From: Deltaproteobacteria bacterium
GTDB lineage: Bacteria > Myxococcota_A > UBA9160 > UBA6930
NCBI GenBank assembly: GCA_016875395.1
Contig: VGRF01000008.1
Coordinates: 62,001 to 126,000 of the forward strand
Reading direction: 5' to 3'
Length of the DNA stretch: 64,000 nucleotides
How positions within the stretch are numbered: position 1 is the first letter of the stretch; each line of letters begins with the position of its first letter. The notes under the pieces were generated by a model that was given only the letters and a program-made list of their open reading frames with translations, ran no database searches and had not been told where the DNA came from. The position numbers were made by a program, and so were the translations under genes. Of the stretch, positions 17,497-63,185 are shown piece after piece.

Positions 17497-19140
17497 TTAG
17501 GAAGGCTCGCTGCGAGCCGCACGCGCGCGCTCGAGCTCGCGGCGGAGCGAATCGTCGCCCGGCGCGAGCGCCGCGGCGCGTTCGAGGTGCGGAAGCGCGC
17601 GCGCAGGCTCACCCGCCTCGCGCCACGCGCGCGCGGTGCGGCGCAGCAGCGGCACGCGCTCCGGTGCGAACGCGAGCGCCGCCTCGTAGGCGAGCGCAGC
17701 TTCGCGCGCGTCGCCGAGCGCTGCGTGCGCGAGGCCGAGCGTGAGCTGCGACTGCAAGCCGGCCCCGCCGCTCTCGATCGCGCGGCGCGATTCCGCACGC
17801 GCGCCTTCGAACGCGCGCAGCCGAAGCAGCGCCTGCGCGATCGCGAGGTGGTAGCTGCCGCGATCGAGGCCGAACCAGCGCAGCTGCTCCAGCGACGCGC
17901 GGGCCGTCGCGAAGTCGCCCGCTCTCATCGCGCGACTCCAGCGGTCGTGCAGCAGCACGCCCGCGAGGTTCGCGATCAGCAGCGCCGCGCACAGCGCCCA
18001 CGCGGCGCGCCCGAGCCAGCTCGCGCGCGCGGAGCCGAGCGACGCCTCGGGCTGGCTGAAGATCAGCACCTCCGCGATGCGCCCGCGCAGCTTCCAGATC
18101 GCGCCGTCGAGCACGAAGTGGTGGAGGTTCGCGAACGCGGCGACGAGCAGGAGCACGCCGGCGTCAGGCGACAGCAGCTCGAAGCCGGGCTGCCACAGCA
18201 CGAGCAGCGGCAGCGTCCACGGCAGCGCGCCCGCGGCGGCGGACTTCGCCCAAAAGCTCGCGAGGCTGCGCTGTGCGCCCGACTGCTTCGCGTAGTACGC
18301 GGTCACCCACAGGTACTGCGCGGCGTGCGAGAGCGCGATCCACATGAAGTAGTGGTTGTTGTTGGCCCAAGCGAGCGCGTCGACGTGCTCGAACCAGCCG
18401 TAGTGCAGCGTCAAGTACGGCAGCGTGAACCAGAGCACCTGCGCGGCCCACAGCGCGAGCGCGGGCGCGATCGCGCGCAGCGAAGCGCGGCGCAGCAGCG
18501 AGGCGGCGCACAGCGCGAGCGCGATGCACTGGCCCGCGAGCGCGAGCGGCACCGCCCACGCGACCAGGCTCGCGGGAATGCCGAGCGGCGCGAACGCGAT
18601 GCCCTGTGCTCCGCCGTAGAGGTCCGCGTTGCGCACGCCGACGCCCGCGCCGTGCGCGACGACCGCCACGAGCACGAACGACAGCACGAACGACGTGTAC
18701 AGCCAGCGCTTCTCGGCGCCCGCGGTCTCGACGCCGCGTCGCCGCAAGAACATCACCGCGAGCCCGTAGTTCTGGCCGGTGTAGTGCCACGGGCTCCACG
18801 TGAAGTAGAGCGTGACGAGGAAAGTTCCGAGCGCGGGCGAGAACACCGCGGCGGCGAACAGCGCCACGAGCGCGAGCGTCGCCCAGATCGAGAACAGCGC
18901 GTAGGCGCGCCGGTCGCGCGCGTTCTCGTACACGCGCAGCAGCGTCGCGCCGTAGTGCGGAATGCTGACCGCGAGAAAGGCGAGGCTGAACAGCAGCGGC
19001 GGCTGCGCGAGGCGCAGCTCGCGGCCGACGAACAGGAGCGCGACGAACAGCGCGGCGTAGGCGAGGCCGCAGCCGAGCAGGAGATCGCTCCAGCGCCCGA
19101 ACAGCCAGCCGTCGTTCGCGGGTTTCGTCGCGGCCGCCAT
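17497..19140 (-). CDS. Polytopic membrane protein with TPR-like tail, paralogue C
   Basis: 547 residues. About ten hydrophobic segments fill residues 10-400, then a TPR-like alpha-helical region to the end. Conserved among the three tandem paralogues are HYGATLLRVYE, WSPWHYTGQNYGLAVMFL, an HAAQYLWVTAYYA helix and HHFVLDGAIWKLRGR. The repeated histidines in or next to membrane helices could bind a metal. I do not recognise a family. The ATG at 19140 shares one base with the stop of paralogue B (TGATG). It is last of the three and lies directly upstream of nuoI. Confidence 0.8.
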   Translation of the reverse strand: MAAATKPANDGWLFGRWSDLLLGCGLAYAALFVALLFVGRELRLAQPPLLFSLAFLAVSIPHYGATLLRVYENARDRRAYALFSIWATLALVALFAAAVFSPALGTFLVTLYFTWSPWHYTGQNYGLAVMFLRRRGVETAGAEKRWLYTSFVLSFVLVAVVAHGAGVGVRNADLYGGAQGIAFAPLGIPASLVAWAVPLALAGQCIALALCAASLLRRASLRAIAPALALWAAQVLWFTLPYLTLHYGWFEHVDALAWANNNHYFMWIALSHAAQYLWVTAYYAKQSGAQRSLASFWAKSAAAGALPWTLPLLVLWQPGFELLSPDAGVLLLVAAFANLHHFVLDGAIWKLRGRIAEVLIFSQPEASLGSARASWLGRAAWALCAALLIANLAGVLLHDRWSRAMRAGDFATARASLEQLRWFGLDRGSYHLAIAQALLRLRAFEGARAESRRAIESGGAGLQSQLTLGLAHAALGDAREAALAYEAALAFAPERVPLLRRTARAWREAGEPARALPHLERAAALAPGDDSLRRELERARAARSEPS

Positions 19141-20780
19141 CAGAGCGTTCTCCGCAGCGCGGCGCGCGCCTGCGCAAGCTCGCGCGCGATTGCGCCGTCG
19201 CGCGGGCGCAGCCGACGCGCGGCCTCGAGGTGGGCGACCGCCGCCTGCGCATCGCCCGCCGCCAGCAGACTCGCCGCGGCATTGCGGCGCACCTTCGCGT
19301 GGTTCGGCGCGAGCGCGACCGCGTGCTCCCACTGCGTCGCGGCGCTGCGCGCATCGCCCGCTCGCGCGAGCGCCCGCGCGAGCAGCGCGTGTCCGGCGAG
19401 CGAAGGCTCGAGCGCGAGGCTCCGCTCGAGCTGCGCCCGCGCGGCGGCGACGTCTCCCTCGGCGAGACGCTCGCGGCCGAGGATGCGCCGCGCCTGCGCG
19501 CGGTCGTGCCCGATCCACGCCAGCCGCGCCTCTGCGCGCTCTGCCGCCGCGAGATCGCCGCGCACGAGCGCACGCCGCGAGAGCTCCTCCTGCGCCACCT
19601 GCCAGAGCCCCGCGCCGAGCGCGAGCGCGCAGGTCGCCCACACGGCGTTGCGCACGAGCGGCCGCCGCGGCGCGGCGTCTGCCTCGTCGTCCGCGTTCCG
19701 GATCAGCACGGCCGCCACGCGCCCGCGCAGCTTCCAGATCGCGCCGTCGAGAATGAAGTGGTGCACGTTCACCGCCGCGGCGACGAGCAGCGCGAGCCCC
19801 GCGTCGAGCGAGCGCCAGCCGAGCGCGGCGGGGCCGAGCGCGATCGCGGGGAGCATCCACACCCCCGCGCTCGATGCGAGAGCCTTGCCGTAGAAGGCAA
19901 AGAATCCCTGATGACCCGGCGTGTGGCGCGCGGTGAATGCCGTCACCCACAGATATTGGATTGCGTGGCCGGCGGCGATCCAGACGAAGTAGTGCTCGTG
20001 GTGCGCCCAGTCGAGCACCTCGAACGGCGTCGCGAGGTCGAACTGACGGACCACTGAAGGCACGACGAACCAGAGCGCCTGCGTCAGCGCGAGGCAGGCT
20101 GGCGCCAGCAGCTGCGACGGCGCCGCGCGACCGAGCAAGCCGGTCGCGCTGCGTCCGAGCGCAGCCAGGTAGGCGACGAGCACGAATGGCTGGAGCCACG
20201 CATTGAGCGACTCGGGAATCCCGAGCGGGCGCACCGGCAAGCCATACCGCCCGTCCGGCAGCGACGCGCTCGCGCCGCCGGGCACTTCTTGATGGAGCAT
20301 CAAGAACACGAACACGAAGGAGAGCGCGTAGGAGGCGTAGAGTCAGCGCTTCTCCTCGCCCTCGATCGCGACGCCGGCGCGGCGCAGGAACATCACCGCG
20401 AGGCCGTAGTTCTGGCCGGTGTAGTGCCACGGGCTCCACGTGAGGTAGAGCGTCACGAGCCACGCGCCCGCTGCGGCGTTCAGCGTGCCTGCGAGGAACC
20501 ACGCGGCGACCGCGAGCGTCGCCCAGAGCGAGAACAGCGCGTAGCTGCGGCGGTCGCGCGAGCGCTCGTAGACGCGCAGCAGCGTGGCGCCGTAGTGAGG
20601 CATCGACGCGAACGTGAGGAGCAGCGGGAAGAGCAGCGCGGGCTGAGCCGCACGCACTTCGGGACCCGCCGCGAGAAGCAGCGCGAACGCGAGCGTGTAG
20701 AGCGCGCCGCAGCCGAACAGCAGATCGCGCCAGCGGCCGAACAGCCACGGCGTAGGCGCGCTCGTCGCCGCGCTGCTCAT
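19140..20780 (-). pseudogene. Polytopic TPR membrane protein, paralogue B, with in-frame TGA
   Basis: The frame from the ATG at 20780 to the stop at 19140 matches paralogues A and C throughout, with the same HYGATLLRVYE, WHYTGQNYG and HHFILDGAIWKLRGR motifs. At 20343-20345 it has TGA exactly where the others have TGG (EKR-W-LY in paralogue C, KR-W-LW in A). One base change explains it. Codons continue as conserved protein after the stop. As read, it would make a 145-residue truncated peptide; the rest could restart only weakly. This is a recent nonsense mutation or a base-call error. Confidence 0.75.
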
Positions 20781-22444
20781 GGAGCCCCCGCGCCGGGGCC
20801 GATCAGGCGTGCGAGCCGATCGCGCTCGCTGCGCACCTCGGCGTCGTCCGGCGCGAGCGCGAGCGCGCGGTCGAAGTGCGGCAGCGCGCGCGGCGCGCGG
20901 CCCGCGGCGAGCCACGCGCGCGCCGCCTCGGCGTGCAAGTTCGCGCTCTCGGGTGCGGACTCGATCGCAACCTCGATCGCCTCGGCGGCGCGCGCGAAGT
21001 CGCCCTCGGCGAAGGCGAGCTTCGCCAGTAACAACTGCGACGCGAGCGTCGGCGCGAGCGCGTGCGAGCGCTCGGTGTTCGCGCGTGCGGCGGCGAGGTC
21101 GCGCGCCGAGAGCTGCGCCTCCGCGAGCGCGAGCCGCGTCGCCGCGTCGTCGCGCCCGAGCTGCGCGAGGCGCGCTTGGCTCGCCTCGGCGCCGGCGATG
21201 TCGCCGGCTGCGAGCGCGCCGCGCGAGCGCTCTTCCTCGAGTACGAGCCAGAGCGCAGCCGCGAACAGCGCCGCGCAGGTCGTCCACACGAGCGGCCGCA
21301 GCACGAGGCTCGGCCGCTCGCCGTCGGCGCCCTCGCGCGCGGCGCGGATCAGGATCTCGCCGATGCGCCCGCGCAGCTTCCAGATCGCGCCGTCGAGGAT
21401 GAAGTGGTGGACGTTCACTGCCGACGCGATCAACAGCGCGAGACCCGCGTCCATCGAGCTGACGCCGAGCGCCGCGGGGCCGAACGCGAGCGACGGCAGC
21501 GTCCAGATCGCGGCGCCGGAGGCGAGCACCTTCGCTGCATACGGCGCGAAGCCGCTCCACGACTCGCTCTGGCGAGCGTAATAAGTCGTCACCCACAGGT
21601 ACTGCGCCGAGTGGAACAGCGCGATCCAAGTGACGTAATGGGCGCGCTGGCGCCAGTCGAAGGCTTCGAATCCGAACGACGTGTTCAACATCAGCGCCGC
21701 GGCGGGGAGCGCGAACCAGAGCGCCTGCGATGCGGCGAGCAGCGCTGCGGGACCGAGCGCGGCGAGGCTCGGAGCGCTGCGCGCGAGTCCGACCCCGGCA
21801 CGCACGAGGCACGCCAGCGCGGCGGCGCCGAGCGCGAGCGTGAGCGGCTGCGCGAGCGCGAGAGGAATCCCGAGGCGACCGACGTGCAGCGCGTAGCTCG
21901 CGTACTGCACGGGCGCCTCGACCTCGCCGGGCGTCTGCGCGTGCATCGAGACGAACGTGAGCGCGTACGAGAGCGCGAATGCGGCCCACAGCCAGCGCTT
22001 GTCCTTGGCGTCCACTGCGACGCCGCGCCGGCCGAGGAACATCACCGCCAGGCCGTAGTTCTGGCCGGTGTAGTGCCACGGGCTCCACGTCAGATAGAGC
22101 GTCGCGAGCCAGGTTCCCGCGACCGGCTCGATCAGCGCGAGCGCTAACCACGCTGCGACGGCCGCGGTCGCGCCGTAGGAAAACACGGCGTAGCTGCGGC
22201 GGTCGCGCGCGCGCTCGTACACGCGCAGCAGCGTGCCGCCGTAGTGCGGCATGCCGAGCAGCAGCACGCCGAGCGGGAACACGAGCGCCGGCTGCGCGAT
22301 GCGCAGCCGCTCGCCGCCGAGCATGAACGCGCCGAACGCGAGCAGCGAGAGCGCGCCGCAGCCGAGCAGGAGATCCGGCGCGGGCCCGAACAGCCAGCCG
22401 GAGCGCGCGGCAGGCGGAGTCGTGGCGGCGGCGATGGCACCCAT
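20777..22444 (-). CDS. Polytopic membrane protein with TPR-like tail, paralogue A
   Basis: 555 residues from the ATG at 22444. It shares the full architecture with B and C: an N-terminal GWLFGPAPDLLLGCGALS start, WSPWHYTGQNYGLAVMFL, HSAQYLWVTTYYARQ, HHFILDGAIWKLRGR, then a helical repeat tail with alanine-rich 34-residue spacing (AAEAIEVAIESAPESANLHA). The stop overlaps the start of B as ATGA. First of three in a coupled unit, 62 bases after lipA. Family not recognised; membrane enzyme or complex-assembly factor are both possible. Confidence 0.8.
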   Translation of the reverse strand: MGAIAAATTPPAARSGWLFGPAPDLLLGCGALSLLAFGAFMLGGERLRIAQPALVFPLGVLLLGMPHYGGTLLRVYERARDRRSYAVFSYGATAAVAAWLALALIEPVAGTWLATLYLTWSPWHYTGQNYGLAVMFLGRRGVAVDAKDKRWLWAAFALSYALTFVSMHAQTPGEVEAPVQYASYALHVGRLGIPLALAQPLTLALGAAALACLVRAGVGLARSAPSLAALGPAALLAASQALWFALPAAALMLNTSFGFEAFDWRQRAHYVTWIALFHSAQYLWVTTYYARQSESWSGFAPYAAKVLASGAAIWTLPSLAFGPAALGVSSMDAGLALLIASAVNVHHFILDGAIWKLRGRIGEILIRAAREGADGERPSLVLRPLVWTTCAALFAAALWLVLEEERSRGALAAGDIAGAEASQARLAQLGRDDAATRLALAEAQLSARDLAAARANTERSHALAPTLASQLLLAKLAFAEGDFARAAEAIEVAIESAPESANLHAEAARAWLAAGRAPRALPHFDRALALAPDDAEVRSERDRLARLIGPGAGAP

Positions 22445-54675: not shown

Positions 54676-55296
54676 TCAGGTCTCCCCTAACAGCGCGAGC
54701 ACCGCTGCCTCTTGCGCAGCGCGAGCGCGCGCGGGCGTGAGACCCTGATCGCGGCACAGCCGGTCCCAGGCTTCGAACGACGCGACCAGCTCGATCGCGT
54801 CGCTCGTGGCATGCGTGGCCTTCGCGAGCTCGGGCAGCCACAGCGCGAGGTGTTCGCGCAGCTGCAGCACGAGCTTCTCGTGCTCGGCGTTCAGGAACGG
54901 CGAGCGCTCGCGATTCAAGTTGCCCGAGCGCTTGTAAGGCGCGATGCGCTCGAACAGGCGCGCGCGGCGCTGCACCATCGTGCGCGCGCGCTGCGCCACC
55001 CCGCCCCTCGGCTGATCCGCCGCGACGATCGGCTCCACCTCGCGGCGCAGGCGCTTCGTGACCCCCGCGTAGAGGCTCTCCATGTCCGTGAAGTGACGGA
55101 ACACGCTGCGCAGGCCCACGCCCGCGCGCGCCGCGACCTGCTCTGCAGTGGGCTCGAGCACGCCCTCGCCCACCAGCTCGAACATCGCGCCGGCGATCGC
55201 GTCGCGATTGCGCTCGCCGCGCTGGACGCGCCCATCCGGTGCGCCCTTCGCCTTCGCGCGCGCGCTCGCCCGCTTCGCCGCTGCTCTCCGCTTCAC
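54676..55296 (-). CDS. TetR-family transcriptional repressor of the catabolic island
   Basis: 206 residues from a GTG at 55296. An arginine-rich N-terminus is followed by a TetR helix-turn-helix, ATAEQVAARAGVGLRSVFRH-like (here PTAEQVAARAGVGLRSVFRH), and a ligand-binding domain (RSPFLNAEHEKLVL, SFEAWDRL). The frame is open further upstream, but the 20-bp operator at 55315-55334 would then be coding; the shorter start places the operator 18 bases ahead, as expected for autorepression. The same operator occurs at 56896 and 61487, so it likely controls both. Its effector is unknown. Confidence 0.85.
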   Translation of the reverse strand: MKRRAAAKRASARAKAKGAPDGRVQRGERNRDAIAGAMFELVGEGVLEPTAEQVAARAGVGLRSVFRHFTDMESLYAGVTKRLRREVEPIVAADQPRGGVAQRARTMVQRRARLFERIAPYKRSGNLNRERSPFLNAEHEKLVLQLREHLALWLPELAKATHATSDAIELVASFEAWDRLCRDQGLTPARARAAQEAAVLALLGET

Positions 55297-55314
55297 CGCC
55301 GGCCTCGCAAATGC

Positions 55315-55334
55315 TGGCACCCACAGTGCCACAA
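55315..55334. promoter_or_regulatory. TetR operator, site 1
   Basis: TGGCAC-CCACA-GTGCCACAA. The 6-base arms TGGCAC and GTGCCA are perfectly complementary. It sits 18 bases upstream of the TetR gene start (minus strand) and matches sites 2 and 3. Confidence 0.75.
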
Positions 55335-55465
55335 GCGTGCGTGCGAATCCCAGGGCGAGGCGCAACGCATCGCGCGCCGTCTCGCCCAGAAATCCTGGAA
55401 GCTCGCGTGGAAGCGCGGCCATCACGCTGCCATGATCGAGGCTTCTCGCACGAAGAGGCGCCTCG

Positions 55466-55843
55466 ATGCAAACCGCGCTGCGCTGGCTCTCACGAATTCT
55501 GGGCGCGTTCTTCTTGGTGGAGGGCGTGAGCTGGCTCGCCAACCCGGCAGGCGCCGCGCAGGGCCTCGCGATGCCGCTGCTCGACGGCCTCGGACGCAGC
55601 ACCCAGGTGGGCGACTTCGCGGCGTTCTTCCTCGCGATCGGCGCCACGGCCCTCGCCGGTGCGCGCGCAGGTCACGCACGCCTGTTGTTCGTGCCCGCAG
55701 GAATCCTCGCGGCGGCGGCTCTCGGGCGCACGCTCGCATGGGCGCTCCACGGTGCGGACTTCGCGAGCGTGTTCATCGGCGTCGAGGTCATGGCTGCCGC
55801 GATCCTGGCCTTCGCCGCGACGAGACTCGATGCCAGCGCGTAA
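55466..55843 (+). CDS. Small four-helix membrane protein (DUF4345-like)
   Basis: 125 residues, four hydrophobic segments, with GRSTQVGDFAAFFLAIGATA and LLFVPAGILAAAALGRTLAW. The layout resembles the small DUF4345-type membrane proteins. It is divergent from the TetR gene with site 1 between them, so it could belong to the same regulon. Convergent with the GST-like gene, 6 bases apart. Confidence 0.65.
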   Translation: MQTALRWLSRILGAFFLVEGVSWLANPAGAAQGLAMPLLDGLGRSTQVGDFAAFFLAIGATALAGARAGHARLLFVPAGILAAAALGRTLAWALHGADFASVFIGVEVMAAAILAFAATRLDASA

Positions 55844-55849
55844 CGCCTG

Positions 55850-56866
55850 TTAGGCGAACAGCGCCTCGCAGCCGGTTCCCGCGAGCACCTCGCCCACCGC
55901 CGCCCGATCGCCGCTCGCGAGCTCTGCATGGCCCTCGCGCAGCCACTGCAGGCACTTGCCCTGATAAGGGAACGGCTGCTGCACCCAAGGCTTGCCGTCG
56001 ATCACGCACTCGACGCGCTCGGCGCGGCGCGCGAGCGCATCCGCGTTCGCGAGCAGGAAGGGCGCGTAGACGCGGCCCACTTCGGCGAAGAGCGCGCGCA
56101 GGGCGGGCGTGATCGCACCGCGCGCGATCCAGCCCGAGTCCGCCACCTCGAGGCCCGACAAGTCCTCCACGATGTCGACCCACGCGACCACGCGCGGCGC
56201 GAGCGCGAGCGCCTCGCCGCGCGGCGTCGGATCGAAGCTCGCGAGCTGCGTGAGCTGGCCGTAGAGACCGAAGTCTGCGGCGCTCGGCCGGGCTCCGAAC
56301 ACGAAGGGCGCCTCGCGTAGCCGCGCGTCGAGGAGCCGTAACAAGCGCCGGTAGCTCTCCTCGATCACCGGCGCCGTCGTCGCGTTCGAGCCCACCACCC
56401 ACAGCCGGCCGATCTGACGCTCCGAGAACATCTTCGCAGCGGCGACCGCGTTCTCCTCGGCGTCGTCGACGCGCCGCCAGCGCGGAAGGATTGCGGCGGC
56501 CTGCGCGATGTCCGCCGCGTACGCCCAGCGGTAGTGGAACATCATCTTCGTCGCCCACTCGTCCGCGTAGTCCTCGAGCAGCGCGTCGAGGAACGCGAGC
56601 GCCGGGTCGTCCGGAATCACGGAGCGCCCGGCGTGCTCCCGCTCGAGGCGGCGAATCAGCGGCGAGGAGTCCGTGAGCGCCTCCCTGGCGAAGGGGTAGA
56701 CGAGCTGCGGCAGCAGCTCGACACGCGGCCTCGGCAGCGAGCGAGCGCCGGGCGAGCCCGCTTGAACCCACGCGTGGGGGATGCGCCGGTAGCGCAGCAC
56801 CGCGCGTAGCTTGCGGCTGTAGGGCGAGCCGGGCGCGCCCACGATGCGAAGCGTCGAATCGGTCAC
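55850..56866 (-). CDS. Glutathione S-transferase-like protein with extended C-terminus
   Basis: 338 residues from GTG at 56866. The thioredoxin-fold N-terminus IVGAPGSPYSRKLRAVLRYR has the SPYS arrangement used by GST-type enzymes, then the helical domain with ADFGLYGQLTQLASFDPTPR. Family length is near 220, so the last 110 residues are an extra domain. It is divergent from the gene at 56935 and shares operator site 2. It may conjugate or dehalogenate the regulon's substrate. Confidence 0.75.
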   Translation of the reverse strand: MTDSTLRIVGAPGSPYSRKLRAVLRYRRIPHAWVQAGSPGARSLPRPRVELLPQLVYPFAREALTDSSPLIRRLEREHAGRSVIPDDPALAFLDALLEDYADEWATKMMFHYRWAYAADIAQAAAILPRWRRVDDAEENAVAAAKMFSERQIGRLWVVGSNATTAPVIEESYRRLLRLLDARLREAPFVFGARPSAADFGLYGQLTQLASFDPTPRGEALALAPRVVAWVDIVEDLSGLEVADSGWIARGAITPALRALFAEVGRVYAPFLLANADALARRAERVECVIDGKPWVQQPFPYQGKCLQWLREGHAELASGDRAAVGEVLAGTGCEALFA

Positions 56867-56895
56867 GTCGTCGTCTCCGGTTCCGGCGCAGATTA

Positions 56896-56915
56896 TGGCA
56901 CGGCCTGTGCCACAA
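56896..56915. promoter_or_regulatory. TetR operator, site 2
   Basis: TGGCAC-GGCCT-GTGCCACAA, with perfect 6-base arms. It lies between divergent genes, 29 bases from the GST-like start and 19 bases from the gene at 56935. An ATAATC next to it on the minus strand could be part of a -10 element. Confidence 0.8.
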
Positions 56916-56934
56916 TGGCGCGCGAGGAGCCGCC

Positions 56935-57576
56935 ATGAACTCGCGCCTTCGCCGCCTCTCGCCTTGGCTCGCCGCCGCGCTCTTCTACGCGGTGTTCCGG
57001 CTCTGGTACGACGGCTTCGCAGCGCCGCTGAGCCCGGACGAGATCGCGCGCTACGTCGCCGTGATGGAGGAGCGCGGCCAGCCACCCGAGCGCATCGCGC
57101 TCCTGCGCAAGTTCCTCGCGGAAGACGACGGCCGCGACTTCGTGATGGTGAACCTGATCGCGTTCGAGGAGGCGCCGCAGGCGGTCGGCGACATGAGGCC
57201 CGGCGAGAGCGGGCGCGACGCGATGGATCGCTACATGGCGCACATGACGCCCGCGCTGCTCGCCCGCGGCTCGCACCCGATCCTCGGCGGTGATGCGGCC
57301 GCGCACGCGATCGAGGTGTGGGGTCTGCCCGATGCGGAGCGTTGGTCGATGGCGGGCGTCGTCCGCTATCGCAGCCGGCGCGACATGATCGAGATCGCGA
57401 CGCAGCCGGAGTTTCGCGACGCCCACGTCTACAAGCGCGCGGCGATGGAGAAGACCGTCGCGGTGCCGATCGCGCCCTACTTCGTCGCGGGCGGGCCGCG
57501 CCTCGCGGTCGCGCTCGCGCTCGTTGCGGGCGCGGCGCTCGCACACGCCGCGCTCGCGCGGCGGGGCGCCCAGTGA
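56935..57576 (+). CDS. Membrane-anchored DUF1330-like protein
   Basis: 213 residues: an N-terminal helix (LAAALFYAVFRLWYDGF), a soluble dimeric-barrel-like domain with FVMVNLIAFEEA and YMAHMTPALLARGSHPIL and IATQPEFRDAHVYKRAA, and a C-terminal helix (LAVALALVAGAALAHAAL). The soluble part resembles the DUF1330 protein at 61078-61470, which shares operator control. It may bind a ring compound. Its stop overlaps the next start (GTGA). Confidence 0.7.
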   Translation: MNSRLRRLSPWLAAALFYAVFRLWYDGFAAPLSPDEIARYVAVMEERGQPPERIALLRKFLAEDDGRDFVMVNLIAFEEAPQAVGDMRPGESGRDAMDRYMAHMTPALLARGSHPILGGDAAAHAIEVWGLPDAERWSMAGVVRYRSRRDMIEIATQPEFRDAHVYKRAAMEKTVAVPIAPYFVAGGPRLAVALALVAGAALAHAALARRGAQ

Positions 57577-58901
57577 CGCTCGCACGACGCATCGCACCGC
57601 TCGTGATGGGCGCGGTCACGAGCTCGCGCACGCGCGACGTGCGGCGGGCGATCGCGCGGATCTCGCGCCGCATTCGCGGGCGCGCCCGCGAGGTGCACTA
57701 CTTCCACCAAGCCGGCGATCCCTACAGCCACCTCGCCGCGCAGACGCTGCGCTCGCTCACGGAGCGCTACGAGATCGCGCTCGTGCCGCACCTCGTGGCG
57801 CCGCCGAGCGACGCGGCGGCGCCCGAGCGCGCGCTGCTCGAAGCCTTCGCGCGCCGCGACGCCGCCGACGTCGCGCGTGGCTACTGGCTCGCGTTCCCCG
57901 CGAATGCAGGCGCGCCCTCGATGGACGCGCTCGCGCGCGCGCAGCGCTTGCTCGCGCACGCGATCGCGCGCGGCGGCTTCGTGGGCAATGCGGCGGCGAT
58001 CGGCGCGGCGCTGTGGAACGCCGACGAGGCCGCGCTCTTGCGCTTGGGCAGCGAGCTCGGCGAAGCCAGCGAGGCGGACACGGCGGCTGCGCTCGCCGCG
58101 GGCACGGCGCTGCGCGAACGCCTCGGGCACTACCTCGGCGCGATGTTCTTCCATGAGGGCGAGTGGTACTGGGGCGTGGACCGCCTGCATCACCTCGAGC
58201 GCCGCTTGCGCGACGAAGGCGCGGTGCGGGCCGCGGCGCAGGGCGCCTTCATCGCGCCGCGCCCCGCGCCGAAGCGCGGCCCGGTCAGTAACAACCCCGG
58301 CGTCACGCTGGAGTTCTTCCTCTCGCTGCGCAGCCCTTACACCTACGCCGTGACCGAGCGCGTCTACGCGCTCGCGCGGCACTACGGCATCGAGCTCGCG
58401 CTGAAGCCCGTGCTCCCGATGGTCATGCGCGGGCTGCCGGTGCCAGCGGAGAAGCGGATGTACATCCTGCTCGACACGAAGCGCGAGGCCGAGGACGCCG
58501 GCGTCCCGTTCGGGCGCATCTGCGACCCCGTCGGGCGCCCCGTCGAGCGCTGCTTTTCCCTCTACCCGTGGGCGCGCGAGCACGGGCGCGCGGCGGAGTT
58601 GTTACTGGAGTTCATGCGCGCCGCGTGGTCGCAGGGCGTCGACACCGGAAGCGACGCCGGGCTTCGCCTCGCCGCCCTGCGCGCGGGGCTCGATTGGCGC
58701 GAGGCGCAGCAGCACGTCGACCGCGACGAGAGCTGGCGCACGGAGCTCGAAGCGAATCGCGAGGAGATGTTCGCGATCGGCCTCTGGGGCGTGCCGAGCT
58801 TCCGCGTGCGCGGCGGCGGCGCTCCGGACTACTCGACCTGGGGGCAAGACCGGCTGTGGCGCGTGGAAGAGGAAATCTGCGCGCGCGCCCCGAACCGCTG
58901 A
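57573..58901 (+). CDS. Tandem DsbA/HCCA-isomerase-like protein
   Basis: 442 residues from a GTG. Two copies of the DsbA-family fold used by 2-hydroxychromene-2-carboxylate isomerases are fused. The first (REVHYFHQAGDPYSHLAAQ) and second (LEFFLSLRSPYTYAVTERVY) both have the F-x-x-x-SPY opening; the second retains a GLWGVPSFRV cis-proline loop. Single-domain forms act on aromatic or CoA-linked substrates with glutathione. Coupled to the upstream gene and under operator site 2. Confidence 0.75.
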   Translation: MTLARRIAPLVMGAVTSSRTRDVRRAIARISRRIRGRAREVHYFHQAGDPYSHLAAQTLRSLTERYEIALVPHLVAPPSDAAAPERALLEAFARRDAADVARGYWLAFPANAGAPSMDALARAQRLLAHAIARGGFVGNAAAIGAALWNADEAALLRLGSELGEASEADTAAALAAGTALRERLGHYLGAMFFHEGEWYWGVDRLHHLERRLRDEGAVRAAAQGAFIAPRPAPKRGPVSNNPGVTLEFFLSLRSPYTYAVTERVYALARHYGIELALKPVLPMVMRGLPVPAEKRMYILLDTKREAEDAGVPFGRICDPVGRPVERCFSLYPWAREHGRAAELLLEFMRAAWSQGVDTGSDAGLRLAALRAGLDWREAQQHVDRDESWRTELEANREEMFAIGLWGVPSFRVRGGGAPDYSTWGQDRLWRVEEEICARAPNR

Positions 58902-58911
58902 GCCCGCGAAC

Positions 58912-59604
58912 TCAGCGCGCCCACTTCGTGCCGGGCGGCGTGTCGCACGGCCCGCCGATGCGCTCGAGCGTGACGACGCGGTCGCCGAGATCGGGGCGGT
59001 GCCACACGAGATGCCCGTCCGCGTCGAGCTTGCGCGTGATCGCGATCGGGATGCGCGGCGGACGCAGCACGAACGCGCCGTCCTCGAAGCTCGCGATCGC
59101 CGTGATCGGCGTTCTGAAGTCGAGTGCGGAGACGTCGTGCACCGCGTTCGCTTCGGTTCCGTCCGCGCGCGCGTCCGCGATCGTGCCTCCGCCCATGTCG
59201 ACGATGCGGTTTCCGCACTGCTCGATGCGCTCGACGTAGTCGTAGATGCGATCACCGGCCGGCACCCGCGTCCGCTCGCGCGCGACACCGAGCGCGTCCA
59301 ACAACACGAACTTCGCGATGGCGAGCGGACGCCAGCCGGGAGCCTCGACTTGCTCTGCGCGAAGCGTCTTCCACAACCCGCGCAGGTCGGGAGCGCCGGG
59401 CGTCAGCGGCTCCGTGCAGGCAGCGAGCACCGGCGCCGGGAACTTCGCGCCGTAGCCGCCCGGCGGAGAGTGCGCGACGGGGATGTCGGCTGCGTTCACC
59501 TCCCGAACGAGCGACGGCTGTGGGCACTGCGGCTTCGGCTCCGCCCGTGCTTCGACAGCGAGAGCGAGCAGCAAGGCAACGCGCGCCGCGGACGCGCGCG
59601 TCAC
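58912..59604 (-). CDS. Secreted protein of unknown function
   Basis: 230 residues with a signal peptide (ARVALLLALAVEARAEP). Cysteine pairs are spaced along the sequence (PQCPQP, AACTEP, EQCGNR, GPCDTP) and may form disulfides. No family recognised. It is last in a minus-strand run from 61470, with a start overlapping the upstream stop as GTGA. Confidence 0.65.
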   Translation of the reverse strand: MTRASAARVALLLALAVEARAEPKPQCPQPSLVREVNAADIPVAHSPPGGYGAKFPAPVLAACTEPLTPGAPDLRGLWKTLRAEQVEAPGWRPLAIAKFVLLDALGVARERTRVPAGDRIYDYVERIEQCGNRIVDMGGGTIADARADGTEANAVHDVSALDFRTPITAIASFEDGAFVLRPPRIPIAITRKLDADGHLVWHRPDLGDRVVTLERIGGPCDTPPGTKWAR

Positions 59605-60041
59605 TGCGCCTCCGTCTTGCCGTGCGACTCACGCAGCGAGAGCCACAGCGCGAGCGCGACGACGGGGACGCCGTAGAGCGCGCCGAACTTTCCGGGCGCG
59701 TCGACGCTGAGCGGCTTCCACACCCATAACAACCATGCGCCCGCGACCTGCTTCGCGAGCAGAAACGCGAGCAGCGTCGGAACCCAGCGCCGATAGCGCG
59801 TGACCACGCCGAGCTCGATCACGCCCCACGCGATCTGGTCCAGGCCGATCGAGGCGAGGAAGCTGATCGTCGGCGCCGCGTTGTGCGTGAGGTCGATCCC
59901 GGCGATGCGGCTCGCGCCCGAGTCCTGCCAGAACACGTGCACCCAGCCGCGGAAGGCGTTGATCGCGATCTGGAGCCACAAGAACCCAATCGCGAGCGGA
60001 GAGCCGCGGTACTCGTTGTCGGGCGGCGGCAGAATGCGCAT
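59601..60041 (-). CDS. Small four-helix membrane protein
   Basis: 146 residues with four hydrophobic segments (AIGFLWLQIAINAF, ISFLASIGLDQIAWGVI, PTLLAFLLAKQVAGAWLLW, ALYGVPVVALALWLSL). No family recognised. It lies 6 bases downstream of the hydrolase, so it is probably in the same regulon. Confidence 0.65.
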   Translation of the reverse strand: MRILPPPDNEYRGSPLAIGFLWLQIAINAFRGWVHVFWQDSGASRIAGIDLTHNAAPTISFLASIGLDQIAWGVIELGVVTRYRRWVPTLLAFLLAKQVAGAWLLWVWKPLSVDAPGKFGALYGVPVVALALWLSLRESHGKTEAQ

Positions 60042-60047
60042 GCGCGA

Positions 60048-61058
60048 TCAGGCCGGCGTGCGCGCGATGAAGTCGAGCGTGATCCGCGCAAGCTCTTCGC
60101 CCGCGTCTTCCTGCACGAAGTGCCCCGCGCCCGCGATGATCGTGTGCGGCTGGCCCTTCGCACCGGGCACTTCGGCTTGGAAGCGCGCGTCGCCGCCCTT
60201 CGTCACCGGATCGCTGTCGCTGAACGCGGTGAGGAACGGCTTCGCGAAGCGCCCGAGCGCCTCCCACGCGCGCCGGTTGTCAGGAATCGCAGTGTCGTCG
60301 GGCAGGATCGGCACCAGCGTGGGGAAGCGGCGCGCGCCGGCGACGTAACGCTCGTCGGGAAACGGCGCGTCGTACGCCGCCGCTTCAGCGGGCGCGAGCT
60401 TCGGGCACATCGCGCGCAGGACGTTGCCCGGCGTGAACGCGGGCGACTCGGCGCAGTGCTTCTGCCAGTGCATGAAGGGCGGCGCAGCGCCGGGCTTCGT
60501 CGCGGCAAAGCCCCGCGCGACCTCGAGCATCGTCTTCGGCACCGGCAGCTGCGCGTAGAGCGCGCGCAGCGGCACTGCGGCGGCGTCGGGGATGCCGCGC
60601 GCGTCGGGCAGGCCCGTGTTCGACGTAACGACCCGCGCGAAGCGTTCGGGCAACTCGGCCACGAGGCGCAGCCCGATGAGTCCGCCCCAGTCTTGGCAGA
60701 CGAGCGTGATGCCGCGCAGATCGAGCGCGAGGGTGAACGCGCGCATCCACGCGACGTGGCGCGCGTACGAGTAGTCCGCAGTGCGCGTGGGCTTGTCCGA
60801 GCGCCCGAAGCCGACGAGATCCGGCGCGATCACGCGATGACCCGCCGCGGCGAAAAGCGGGATCAGCTTGCGATAGAGGTACGACCAGGTCGGCTGGCCG
60901 TGCAGGCACAGGACCGGCGCCGCCGCGCGCGGGCCTTCGTCGACGTAGTGCACGCGCAGCGTGCCGCCCTCGCCGTCGGCGACGCTCACGTAGCGAGGTG
61001 CGTACGGCCAAGCGGGAAGACTCTCGAAGCGCGCGTCCGGCGTGCGAACGAAGTCCAT
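60048..61058 (-). CDS. Haloalkane dehalogenase-like alpha/beta hydrolase
   Basis: 336 residues. The oxyanion-hole motif HGQPTWSYLYR (residues 53-63), the nucleophile elbow CQDWGGLIG with D123 and the halide-contact W124, a second acid near SDSDPVT (281-287), and the catalytic base H313 in AGHFVQED follow the order of haloalkane dehalogenases of subfamily I (DhlA-like). Such enzymes release halide from short alkanes in the cytoplasm. Aspartate and tryptophan in the elbow support dehalogenation over epoxide hydrolysis, but this is not proven. Confidence 0.82.
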   Translation of the reverse strand: MDFVRTPDARFESLPAWPYAPRYVSVADGEGGTLRVHYVDEGPRAAAPVLCLHGQPTWSYLYRKLIPLFAAAGHRVIAPDLVGFGRSDKPTRTADYSYARHVAWMRAFTLALDLRGITLVCQDWGGLIGLRLVAELPERFARVVTSNTGLPDARGIPDAAAVPLRALYAQLPVPKTMLEVARGFAATKPGAAPPFMHWQKHCAESPAFTPGNVLRAMCPKLAPAEAAAYDAPFPDERYVAGARRFPTLVPILPDDTAIPDNRRAWEALGRFAKPFLTAFSDSDPVTKGGDARFQAEVPGAKGQPHTIIAGAGHFVQEDAGEELARITLDFIARTPA

Positions 61059-61077
61059 CGCGGGCTCCTCGTGCTTG

Positions 61078-61470
61078 TTAGGGGCGCGTCGTCGTGGCGA
61101 GCAGCCACTGGCCCTCGAGGCCCGCCGCGCGGTGCACGCCGATGGCGGCGACTTCGGGGCTCGTGGCGATCTCGACGAACGCCTTGCGCGAGGGGTACTC
61201 GACCAGCGCCGCGACGTGGAAGCCTTCGGCGCCGCCGCCGATCACCTGCGAGTCCACCTCGCCCTGCCAGAGGAAACGCCCGCCGCGCGACTCGACGAGC
61301 TTCCGCATCGCCTCGCCGTAGCGCATGTACGCCTCGCGTCCCGAGCTGCCGTCGTCCGGGGCCGTCGCCTCGGCCTTGAAGCGCAGCAGGTTCAGCATCA
61401 CGACCGGGCCCGACTCGGGGCTCGCGAGCAGCGCTTCGAGCTGCGCCTTCTTCGGATACACCGCGATCAT
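61078..61470 (-). CDS. DUF1330 family protein
   Basis: 130 residues: a dimeric alpha/beta barrel with VVMLNLLRFKAEA, YMRYGEAMRKLVESRGGRFL and FVEIATSPEVAAIGVHRAA. It closely resembles the soluble part of the protein at 56935. First gene of the minus-strand run and 13 bases from operator site 3. Function unknown, though several members bind small molecules. Confidence 0.82.
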   Translation of the reverse strand: MIAVYPKKAQLEALLASPESGPVVMLNLLRFKAEATAPDDGSSGREAYMRYGEAMRKLVESRGGRFLWQGEVDSQVIGGGAEGFHVAALVEYPSRKAFVEIATSPEVAAIGVHRAAGLEGQWLLATTTRP

Positions 61471-61483
61471 TGCTTCGCACCTC

Positions 61484-61506
61484 TTGTGGCACATACAATG
61501 CCACAA
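61484..61506. promoter_or_regulatory. TetR operator, site 3
   Basis: TTGTGGCA-CATACAA-TGCCACAA: perfect 8-base arms. The 20-base core TGGCAC-ATACA-ATGCCACAA matches sites 1 and 2. It lies between the divergent DUF1330 and sulfatase genes. The contained TACAAT could be a -10 element for the sulfatase. Confidence 0.8.
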
Positions 61507-61534: not shown

Positions 61535-63185
61535 ATGCGCAGGCTCGTCGTCGTTCTCGCGATCGCGGCGGCGCTCGGCGCGCTGCTCTGGGCGAACCGC
61601 ATGGAGCTGATCATGAGGGGCCCCGGCGTCGTCGGGCGACTCGTCGACCCCGTAGGCGAGAACGTCGCCGTCGTGTGGGAGGCCGGACCGGCGCAGCCGG
61701 CGAGCGGGGTGCGCCCGCCGAACGTCGTCGTGATCGTGGCCGACGACCTCGGCTACAACGACCTCAGCTTCGGCGGCGGAGGCGTCGCGAACGGCGCCGT
61801 GCCGACGCCGAACATCGACGGCATCGCGCGCGCCGGGGTCGAGTACACGCGCGGCTACGCCGGCAACGCCACCTGCGCGCCCTCGCGCGCCGCGATCATG
61901 ACCGGGCGCTACCCCACGCGCTTCGGCTTCGAGTTCACGCCCGCGCCGAAGCCGTTCATGCGCCTCATCGCGTGGATGCGGCGCAACGAGCCGCTGCCCC
62001 CCCATCTACTTCGAGGAGCGCGAGGCCGGCGTTCCCCCGGTGGCGGACCAAGGCGTGCCTCCGAGCGAGATCACCCTCGCGGAGTTGTTACGGGGCGAGG
62101 GCTACCGAACGCTCGGCCTCGGCAAGTGGCACCTCGGCGAGTCGGCGAGATTCCATCCCAATGCGCAGGGCTTCGACGAGTACCTCGGCTTCGCGCAGGG
62201 CGCGTCGCTGTTCATGAACGAAGACGACCCGCGCGTCGTGAATTCCAAGCAGGACTTCGACCCGATCGACAAGTTCCTGTGGGCGAACCTCGTGTTCGCG
62301 GTGCGCAAGGACGGGGGCGAGCGCTTCGCGCCCGACGCGTACATGACCGACTACCTCGCGCGCGAAGCCGCACGCGCGATCGAAGCGAACCAGCACCGCC
62401 CGTTCTTCCTGTACCTCGCGTTCAACGCGCCCCACACGCCGCTGCAGGCGCTGAAGAGTGACTACGACGCGCTGCCGCAGATCGAGAATCACACGCTGCG
62501 CACCTATGCCGCGATGATCCGTGCGCTCGACCGCGGCGTCGGCGAAGTCTTGGGGGCGCTGCGCGCGCACGGCCTCGAAGAGAACACGCTGGTGTTCTTC
62601 ACCAGCGACAACGGCGGCGCGGACTATGTCGGCATTCCCGACCTCAACCAGCCCTATCGCGGTTGGAAGATGACGTTCTTCGAGGGCGGCATCCGCACGC
62701 CGTTCTTCGCGCAGTGGCCCGCGCAAATCCCAGCCGGCACGCGCTTCCACACGCCTGCGGCGCACGTGGACATCTTCGCGACCGCCGCCGGCGCCGCGCG
62801 AGCGACGCTGCCGAGCGACCGCGTCATCGACGGCGTCGACCTCGTGAAGCTCGCGCGCGGCGAAGCGCAGGGGCGCGCGCACGCCGCGATCTTCTGGAGG
62901 AGCGGCCACTACCGCACGATCCTCGCCGACGACTGGAAGCTGCAGGTGAGCGAACGCCCTGACAAGCAGTGGCTCTTCGATCTCGCGAACGACCCGGCCG
63001 AGCGCACCAACCTCGCGGGCGCTCGCCCCGACAAGCTGGCCGAGCTCGCCGCGATCCTCGCGGAGCACGAGGAGCAGATGGTGCTGCCCGCCTGGCCTGC
63101 GCTGATCGAGGGCCCGATCGCGGTGGATCGCACGCTCGACGCGCAGCGTGTGGAGGGGGAGGAGTATGTGTACTGGGCGAACTAG
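61535..63185 (+). pseudogene. Type I sulfatase with poly-C frameshift
   Basis: The frame from 61535 has a hydrophobic start, the metal-binding VVIVADDLGYND, and CAPSRAAIMTG with C114 as the formylglycine precursor (C-x-P-S-R). At a run of seven C (61997-62003) the frame changes: six C would continue IYFEEREAGVPPVAD and then WHLG, SDNGGADYVGIPDLNQPYRG and the C-terminal domain ending at 63185. Both parts are clear sulfatase sequence. This is either a frameshifted (or phase-variable) gene or a homopolymer sequencing error. It would desulfate sulfate esters outside or in the periplasm. Confidence 0.82.

Follow-up and report, generated by a model that had tools for sequence, protein, structure and literature searches.

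TetR-type autoregulated repressors such as KstR have a helix-turn-helix, an all-helical ligand domain and a palindromic operator in common, and they target their own promoter along with several dispersed operons. In Rhodococcus, the TetR-type repressor DhaR controls the haloalkane dehalogenase gene dhaA. Here we describe a stretch of 64,000 nucleotides from contig VGRF01000008.1 of a Deltaproteobacteria bacterium (hereafter the window), in which a palindrome, T[TA]RTGRCA-N7-TGYCAY[AT]A, precedes a TetR family gene (tetR, 54676-55296) and nearby genes, among them that of a haloalkane dehalogenase. We consider it very likely, on comparative grounds, that this TetR protein has the palindrome as its operator, through which it would repress its own gene together with a conserved, partly dispersed dehalogenase regulon.

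The properties named above for KstR-type repressors are also predicted for the window system, and its regulator also has KstR structures among its fold relatives; operator sequence and target set differ. The likeness to DhaR lies in the placing of a TetR-type regulator over a haloalkane dehalogenase, and no kinship is claimed. In contrast to the window system, that of DhaR is actinobacterial, and DhaA is more distant from the window enzyme (∼103 bits for 1BN6-type chains versus 364 for 6F9O). Both the window dehalogenase and the corresponding Phenylobacterium enzyme match DccA of Caulobacter vibrioides (5ESR), for which the available part of the source (PMC10619424) covers enzyme and structure alone and mentions neither a regulator nor partner genes; the same source calls the biological role of haloalkane dehalogenases "still poorly understood". 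Hydrolytic dehalogenases are notable in the order UBA9160 (Myxococcota) and in the Caulobacterales (PMC10919026), and both groups also carry the regulon predicted here. A Psychrobacter sodium dodecyl sulfate (SDS) module (PMC10779009) has an AraC-type regulator and is unrelated. No prior description of this TetR-operator regulon was found in the literature searched.

Predicted operator sites at gene starts in the source genome

The regulator gene and the three sites of the window are as follows.

54676-55296, minus strand: tetR, TetR-family regulator with a likely GTG start at 55296 (PF00440; orthologues up to 58% identity; all-helical model)
55312-55334: operator 1, upstream of tetR, TGCTGGCACCCACAGTGCCACAA, two mismatches to the palindrome; its place upstream of tetR is conserved in relatives
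56893-56915: operator 2, between the gene of the glutathione S-transferase (GST)-like protein GSTx and a membrane DUF1330-like gene, TTATGGCACGGCCTGTGCCACAA, one mismatch (pattern and palindrome scan)
61484-61506: operator 3, between the DUF1330-dehalogenase operon and a sulfatase gene, TTGTGGCACATACAATGCCACAA, no mismatches (pattern and palindrome scan)

The original prediction, made from the window alone, had placed TGGCAC-N5-RTGCCACAA at 55315-55334, 56896-56915 and 61487-61506 and had seen no fourth copy; exact matching recovered precisely these three sites. Its count of 12 identical positions out of 15 was too low, as all 14 fixed letters are the same in 3/3 sites, the R (A or G) reading G, G and A in operators 1, 2 and 3, respectively. 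The arms are complementary, as had been noted, and the full unit is a 23-bp palindrome, TTGTGGCA-N7-TGCCACAA. A position within about 50 bases of divergent starts, also part of the prediction, applies to both start codons at operators 2 and 3 (13-28 bp). At operator 1 it applies to the likely tetR GTG (15 bp) but not to the ATG of the divergent DUF4345-like gene (55466), which lies 131 bp away and whose regulon membership is uncertain. The tetR reading frame is open beyond GTG 55296 and continues upstream through operator 1.

When up to three mismatches were allowed, the pattern had 14 matches in the window, compared with 1.39 expected and a maximum of 6 in 100 shuffles. The three sites lie no more than 6 kb from each other, as might be expected from chance or a recent local duplication. 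However, none of the 100 shuffles came near the observed count, the sites differ from one another in the bases that separate and flank the arms, and the site recurs at orthologous promoters in other phyla (see below). The probability of such an origin is therefore negligible, and we regard it as already refuted.

Scanning the entire source genome (a 4.51-Mb assembly of 96 contigs, 96% complete), proposed earlier as a check, yielded three exact copies of TGGCAC-N5-RTGCCACAA, all in the window. A genome-wide scan with the palindrome revealed a fourth site outside it, a perfect palindrome at C7:133750-133772 on another contig, ∼50 bp or less from the starts of divergent genes encoding a GST and a metallo-beta-lactamase (MBL)-fold hydrolase. 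All four strong genomic sites, the three exact copies and the C7 palindrome, are located at gene starts; numerous copies without promoter link, named beforehand as evidence that would speak against a regulon, did not appear. Genome-wide, pattern matches with two and three mismatches did not exceed the control level and were left out of account. Two near-matches on contig C3, at C3:178110 and C3:189226, fall inside the coding regions of a pair of oxygenase-like paralogues (WQMACHE) and were judged to be due to chance. These paralogues, found in C3:170500-197000, have a near-operator sequence in common in their coding region, which is of chance origin. A further near-match lies at C51:7524.

Conservation of the regulator and its predicted operator

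The product of gene 54676-55296 is a TetR family member. PF00440 (TetR_N helix-turn-helix) is matched by 35 of 36 members of its family at E ≤ 0.01, and the structure model (38 sequences) is all-helical, with ten helices and a pLDDT of 93. Nearly all of the best PDB fold matches are TetR regulators (TM ≤ 0.66, ∼20% identity), the closest solved fold being 2NP5 (TM 0.66, 18% identity). No named NCBIfam regulator model fits the protein, matches being far under the cut-offs. Relatives at ≥40% identity are present in roughly half of 98 genomes searched, and further ones were found in Phenylobacterium, other Caulobacteraceae, Parvibaculum, Sphingomonas, Novosphingobium and Haliea; a plasmid search gave no match. 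The alphaproteobacterial and myxococcotal proteins constitute two well separated groups in the TetR tree, with few exceptions. An orthologue from a metagenome-assembled genome titled Spirochaeta sp. (L166, NZGT01000073.1) groups with the myxococcotal proteins in this tree, and the title may be a mislabel.

In other Myxococcota, T(A/T)ATGGCA-N7-TGCCAT(A/T)A is found directly upstream of tetR, and 23 of 61 myxococcotal tetR upstream regions score at least 15/18, compared with 15 of 1200 random stretches. The operator takes the form TARTGRCA-N7-TGYCAYTA in the Caulobacteraceae (Alphaproteobacteria). The site is present in 42 of 109 non-redundant regions upstream of tetR orthologues; shuffled sequence gave 0.3 on average, and permuted palindromes averaged 0.32, with a maximum of 13. 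Inspection by eye of recognition-helix residues versus TGG/TGA arms revealed no evident correlation. Whole-genome scans of 22 genomes with a TetR orthologue, mostly chosen in the knowledge that a site lay upstream of tetR, gave 37 palindrome sites versus 4 for the reversed control, while 37 genomes without an orthologue gave 6 sites versus 6, which is chance level. By these comparisons the predicted regulator-operator pair is conserved across two phyla. The autoregulation proposed at the outset is strongly supported by such footprinting, in which the palindrome precedes orthologous tetR genes in both phyla and tracks the TetR orthologue.

The palindrome might instead belong to another regulator, one that governs tetR plus the other genes, and the carrier genomes do encode many other TetR proteins. 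We consider this improbable, however, because this TetR recurs with the site, which stands directly upstream of its gene in two phyla and leads back to tetR neighbourhoods even when the pattern alone is scanned for (L265, L268, L273), and because genomes without the TetR orthologue have chance numbers of sites.

In TGGCAC-N5-RTGC, GG and GC are spaced as they are in sigma-54 promoters. The window sites fit this spacing and RpoN is encoded in the genome, so that they could be read as such promoters (TGGCAC-N5-TTGC, with GG at -24 and GC at -12), palindromic by chance. Many relatives, however, have TGACA/TGTCA arms, in which GG and GC are not kept and the -24 GG is broken. Moreover, conservation of the two arms is symmetric, the sites follow the TetR orthologue, and there are only four strong sites in the genome. 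A sigma-54 origin of the sites is accordingly very improbable.

Target genes of the predicted regulon

Apart from tetR, the genes surrounding the window operators are the following.

55466-55843, plus strand: DUF4345-like membrane protein, divergent from tetR; Pfam match just under the cut-off
55850-56866, minus strand: GSTx, 338-aa GST-like protein (PF13417/PF13410); its family adjoins tetR in 45 loci
56935-57576, plus strand: membrane-anchored DUF1330-related protein (profile comparison); its family is repeatedly found behind the operator in other genomes
57573-58901, plus strand: DsbA-fold protein related to 2-hydroxychromene-2-carboxylate isomerase (PF01323; weak match to 2IMD)
58912-59604, minus strand: predicted 230-aa protein, last gene of the operator-3 operon (open reading frame; no Pfam match)
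59601-60041, minus strand: small membrane protein (open reading frame; family in 19 collected loci)
60048-61058, minus strand: haloalkane dehalogenase, closest to DpcA/DmrA/DccA (NF002043; PDB 6F9O, 4MJ3, 5ESR)
61078-61470, minus strand: DUF1330 protein, first gene of the operator-3 operon (PF07045; PDB match RPA0582)
61535-63185, plus strand: predicted type I sulfatase with CAPSR motif (PF00884; frame analysis)

The gene at 56935 had been called DUF1330; it has no Pfam hit, but its family is indeed related to DUF1330 (profile comparison, probability 97%). It overlaps the DsbA-fold gene (57573) by 4 bases. In the sulfatase gene, which has the C-X-P-S-R formylglycine motif as CAPSR, the frame is interrupted by a single-base shift within seven consecutive C residues (61985-62000), whereas relatives have an intact frame of ∼550-564 aa; either the assembly is wrong here or the gene has recently become a pseudogene.

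Judged by its sequence, gene 60048-61058 is a DhlA/DccA-type haloalkane dehalogenase with predicted activity. It scores 445.7 bits with NF002043 (cut-off 265), and its best PDB matches are 6F9O and 4MJ3, which we take to be DpcA and DmrA, together with 5ESR. Upon alignment with 6F9O, CQDWGG (nucleophile Asp plus Trp), SDSDPVT and GHF-QED (catalytic His) match up. The Phenylobacterium regulon dehalogenase matches DccA with 519 bits over 296 residues. Comparison of the MBL hydrolase with the PDB gave matches to the arylsulfatase chain 8GYG and to PNGM-1.

Neighbourhoods were collected by gene calling and clustering around ∼100 tetR orthologues, using a simple codon model that gives approximate start codons. 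Besides GSTx (45 loci), the families recurring near tetR are haloalkane dehalogenase (44), MBL hydrolase (36), DUF1330 (35), sulfatase (32), small membrane protein (19) and DUF2855 (13); rarer ones are membrane DUF1330-like (12), DsbA-like (12), a formylglycine-generating enzyme (FGE)-type sulfatase modifier (10) and DUF3604 (8). The MBL hydrolase family of these loci is the one found at the distant C7 site in the source genome. The operator is present in 75 of 346 promoters of regulon families, a list drawn up in part once the first operator hits were known, versus 5 of 878 promoters for the remaining genes of these loci (p = 8e-38). With tetR excluded, 58 of 250 regulon-family promoters have it (p = 1e-34), and the reversed motif is found in none. 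As expected, this promoter count is zero for operon-internal genes, of which DUF1330 behind the dehalogenase is an example.

Scans with the palindrome or pattern alone led to a common target set. Away from tetR, sites in Myxococcota precede GSTx three times, the membrane DUF1330-like family twice, and dehalogenase, MBL hydrolase, DUF3604 and DsbA-like genes once each. Sites in named Alpha- and Gammaproteobacteria precede the same families; the 4.3-Mb genome of Phenylobacterium sp. Root1290 has two strong sites only, at its dehalogenase/MBL and sulfatase promoters. In 60 Caulobacteraceae genomes, a cleaner test than the preselected 22 genomes and the promoter enrichment, 10 of 13 newly read site loci fall on the regulon set. 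One Caulobacteraceae genome has a second site, at an MBL/DsbA-like pair, 877 kb from its tetR/dehalogenase site. Of the "small local regulon" of the original prediction, the small size is supported, but "local" has to be taken more widely: one target pair is on C7, and other genomes likewise have scattered targets.

In a myxococcotal subgroup (L198/L123, L121, L099), TetR is found beside genes for a TauD-type dioxygenase, a GST, a luciferase-like monooxygenase and an acyl-CoA dehydrogenase, and one operator arm reads TTRTAGCA. Possibly, this is a sub-regulon that deals with another substrate. Weak sites stand before orthologous thiolase-like genes (MAREAVIVGSLRTGLAKAHRG) in three genomes belonging to one genus (L244, L245, L246), and these genes may be part of the regulon as well. 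Elsewhere in the window (17899-22317), a unit of ∼1640 bp is present in three tandem copies, 60-75% alike, apparently three paralogous genes on the minus strand.

Mode of action and biological meaning

Among 65 operators, 26 instances of a -35-like TTGAC were found at a distance of 14, 16 or 17 bases on the upstream side of the operator; those listed are all from the collected related loci, mostly of Alphaproteobacteria. In the 14-base class, a spacer of 17-18 bases places a -10-like CATAAT/CATTAT within the operator, so that a repressor would cover both spacer and -10; in the 17-base class, a good -10 at standard spacing is not visible. The fixed TTGAC-operator distances suggest steric repression, and from this geometry we infer that repression by occlusion is likely. 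Some TetR-family proteins activate, and LuxR of Vibrio harveyi does so in addition to repressing, according to the available part of PMC2628434; TetR might likewise act as an activator or dual regulator. However, occlusion fits better both with the window operators, at 13-28 bp from the start codons, and with the alphaproteobacterial ones, just downstream of TTGAC, and we consider activation unlikely.

Several observations weigh against an autoregulated TetR repressor with this operator. The window TetR scores 23.5 bits with PF00440, just under the curated cut-off of 24. About 60% of the examined orthologues have no recognisable site directly upstream, although some of these have one at another promoter of the same locus. 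The choice of the 22 genomes and the naming of the regulon families, noted above, count on the same side, and no sigma-70 promoter was recognisable around the sites when the window was scanned.

Repression by TetR nevertheless remains the reading that we hold to be very likely, and we infer the following course. TetR would bind its own promoter and those of GSTx, the membrane DUF1330-like/DsbA-like genes, the DUF1330-dehalogenase operon and the sulfatase, as well as the distant divergent GST/MBL hydrolase pair on C7, and would block RNA polymerase by sitting on the core promoter. A small molecule, probably one that the regulated enzymes consume or produce and possibly a halogenated or sulfated organic compound, would then act as inducer by binding the C-terminal domain and releasing TetR. 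On present sequence evidence, the regulon is best read as a catabolic or detoxification system around a DccA-type dehalogenase. More tentatively, it may serve in sensing and degrading natural halogenated and/or sulfated organics (e.g., algal organohalogens), as the native setting of DccA-type dehalogenases in Myxococcota, Alphaproteobacteria and some Gammaproteobacteria.

The operator places the uncharacterised DUF1330, DUF2855, GSTx and MBL hydrolase families in one predicted regulon. Together, regulator, operator and co-regulated set turn the question of the natural substrate into an inducer screen, in which any compound that releases TetR would be a candidate substrate or product of the dehalogenase regulon. 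The finding would thus open a direct way to learn what the poorly understood haloalkane dehalogenases are for in nature.

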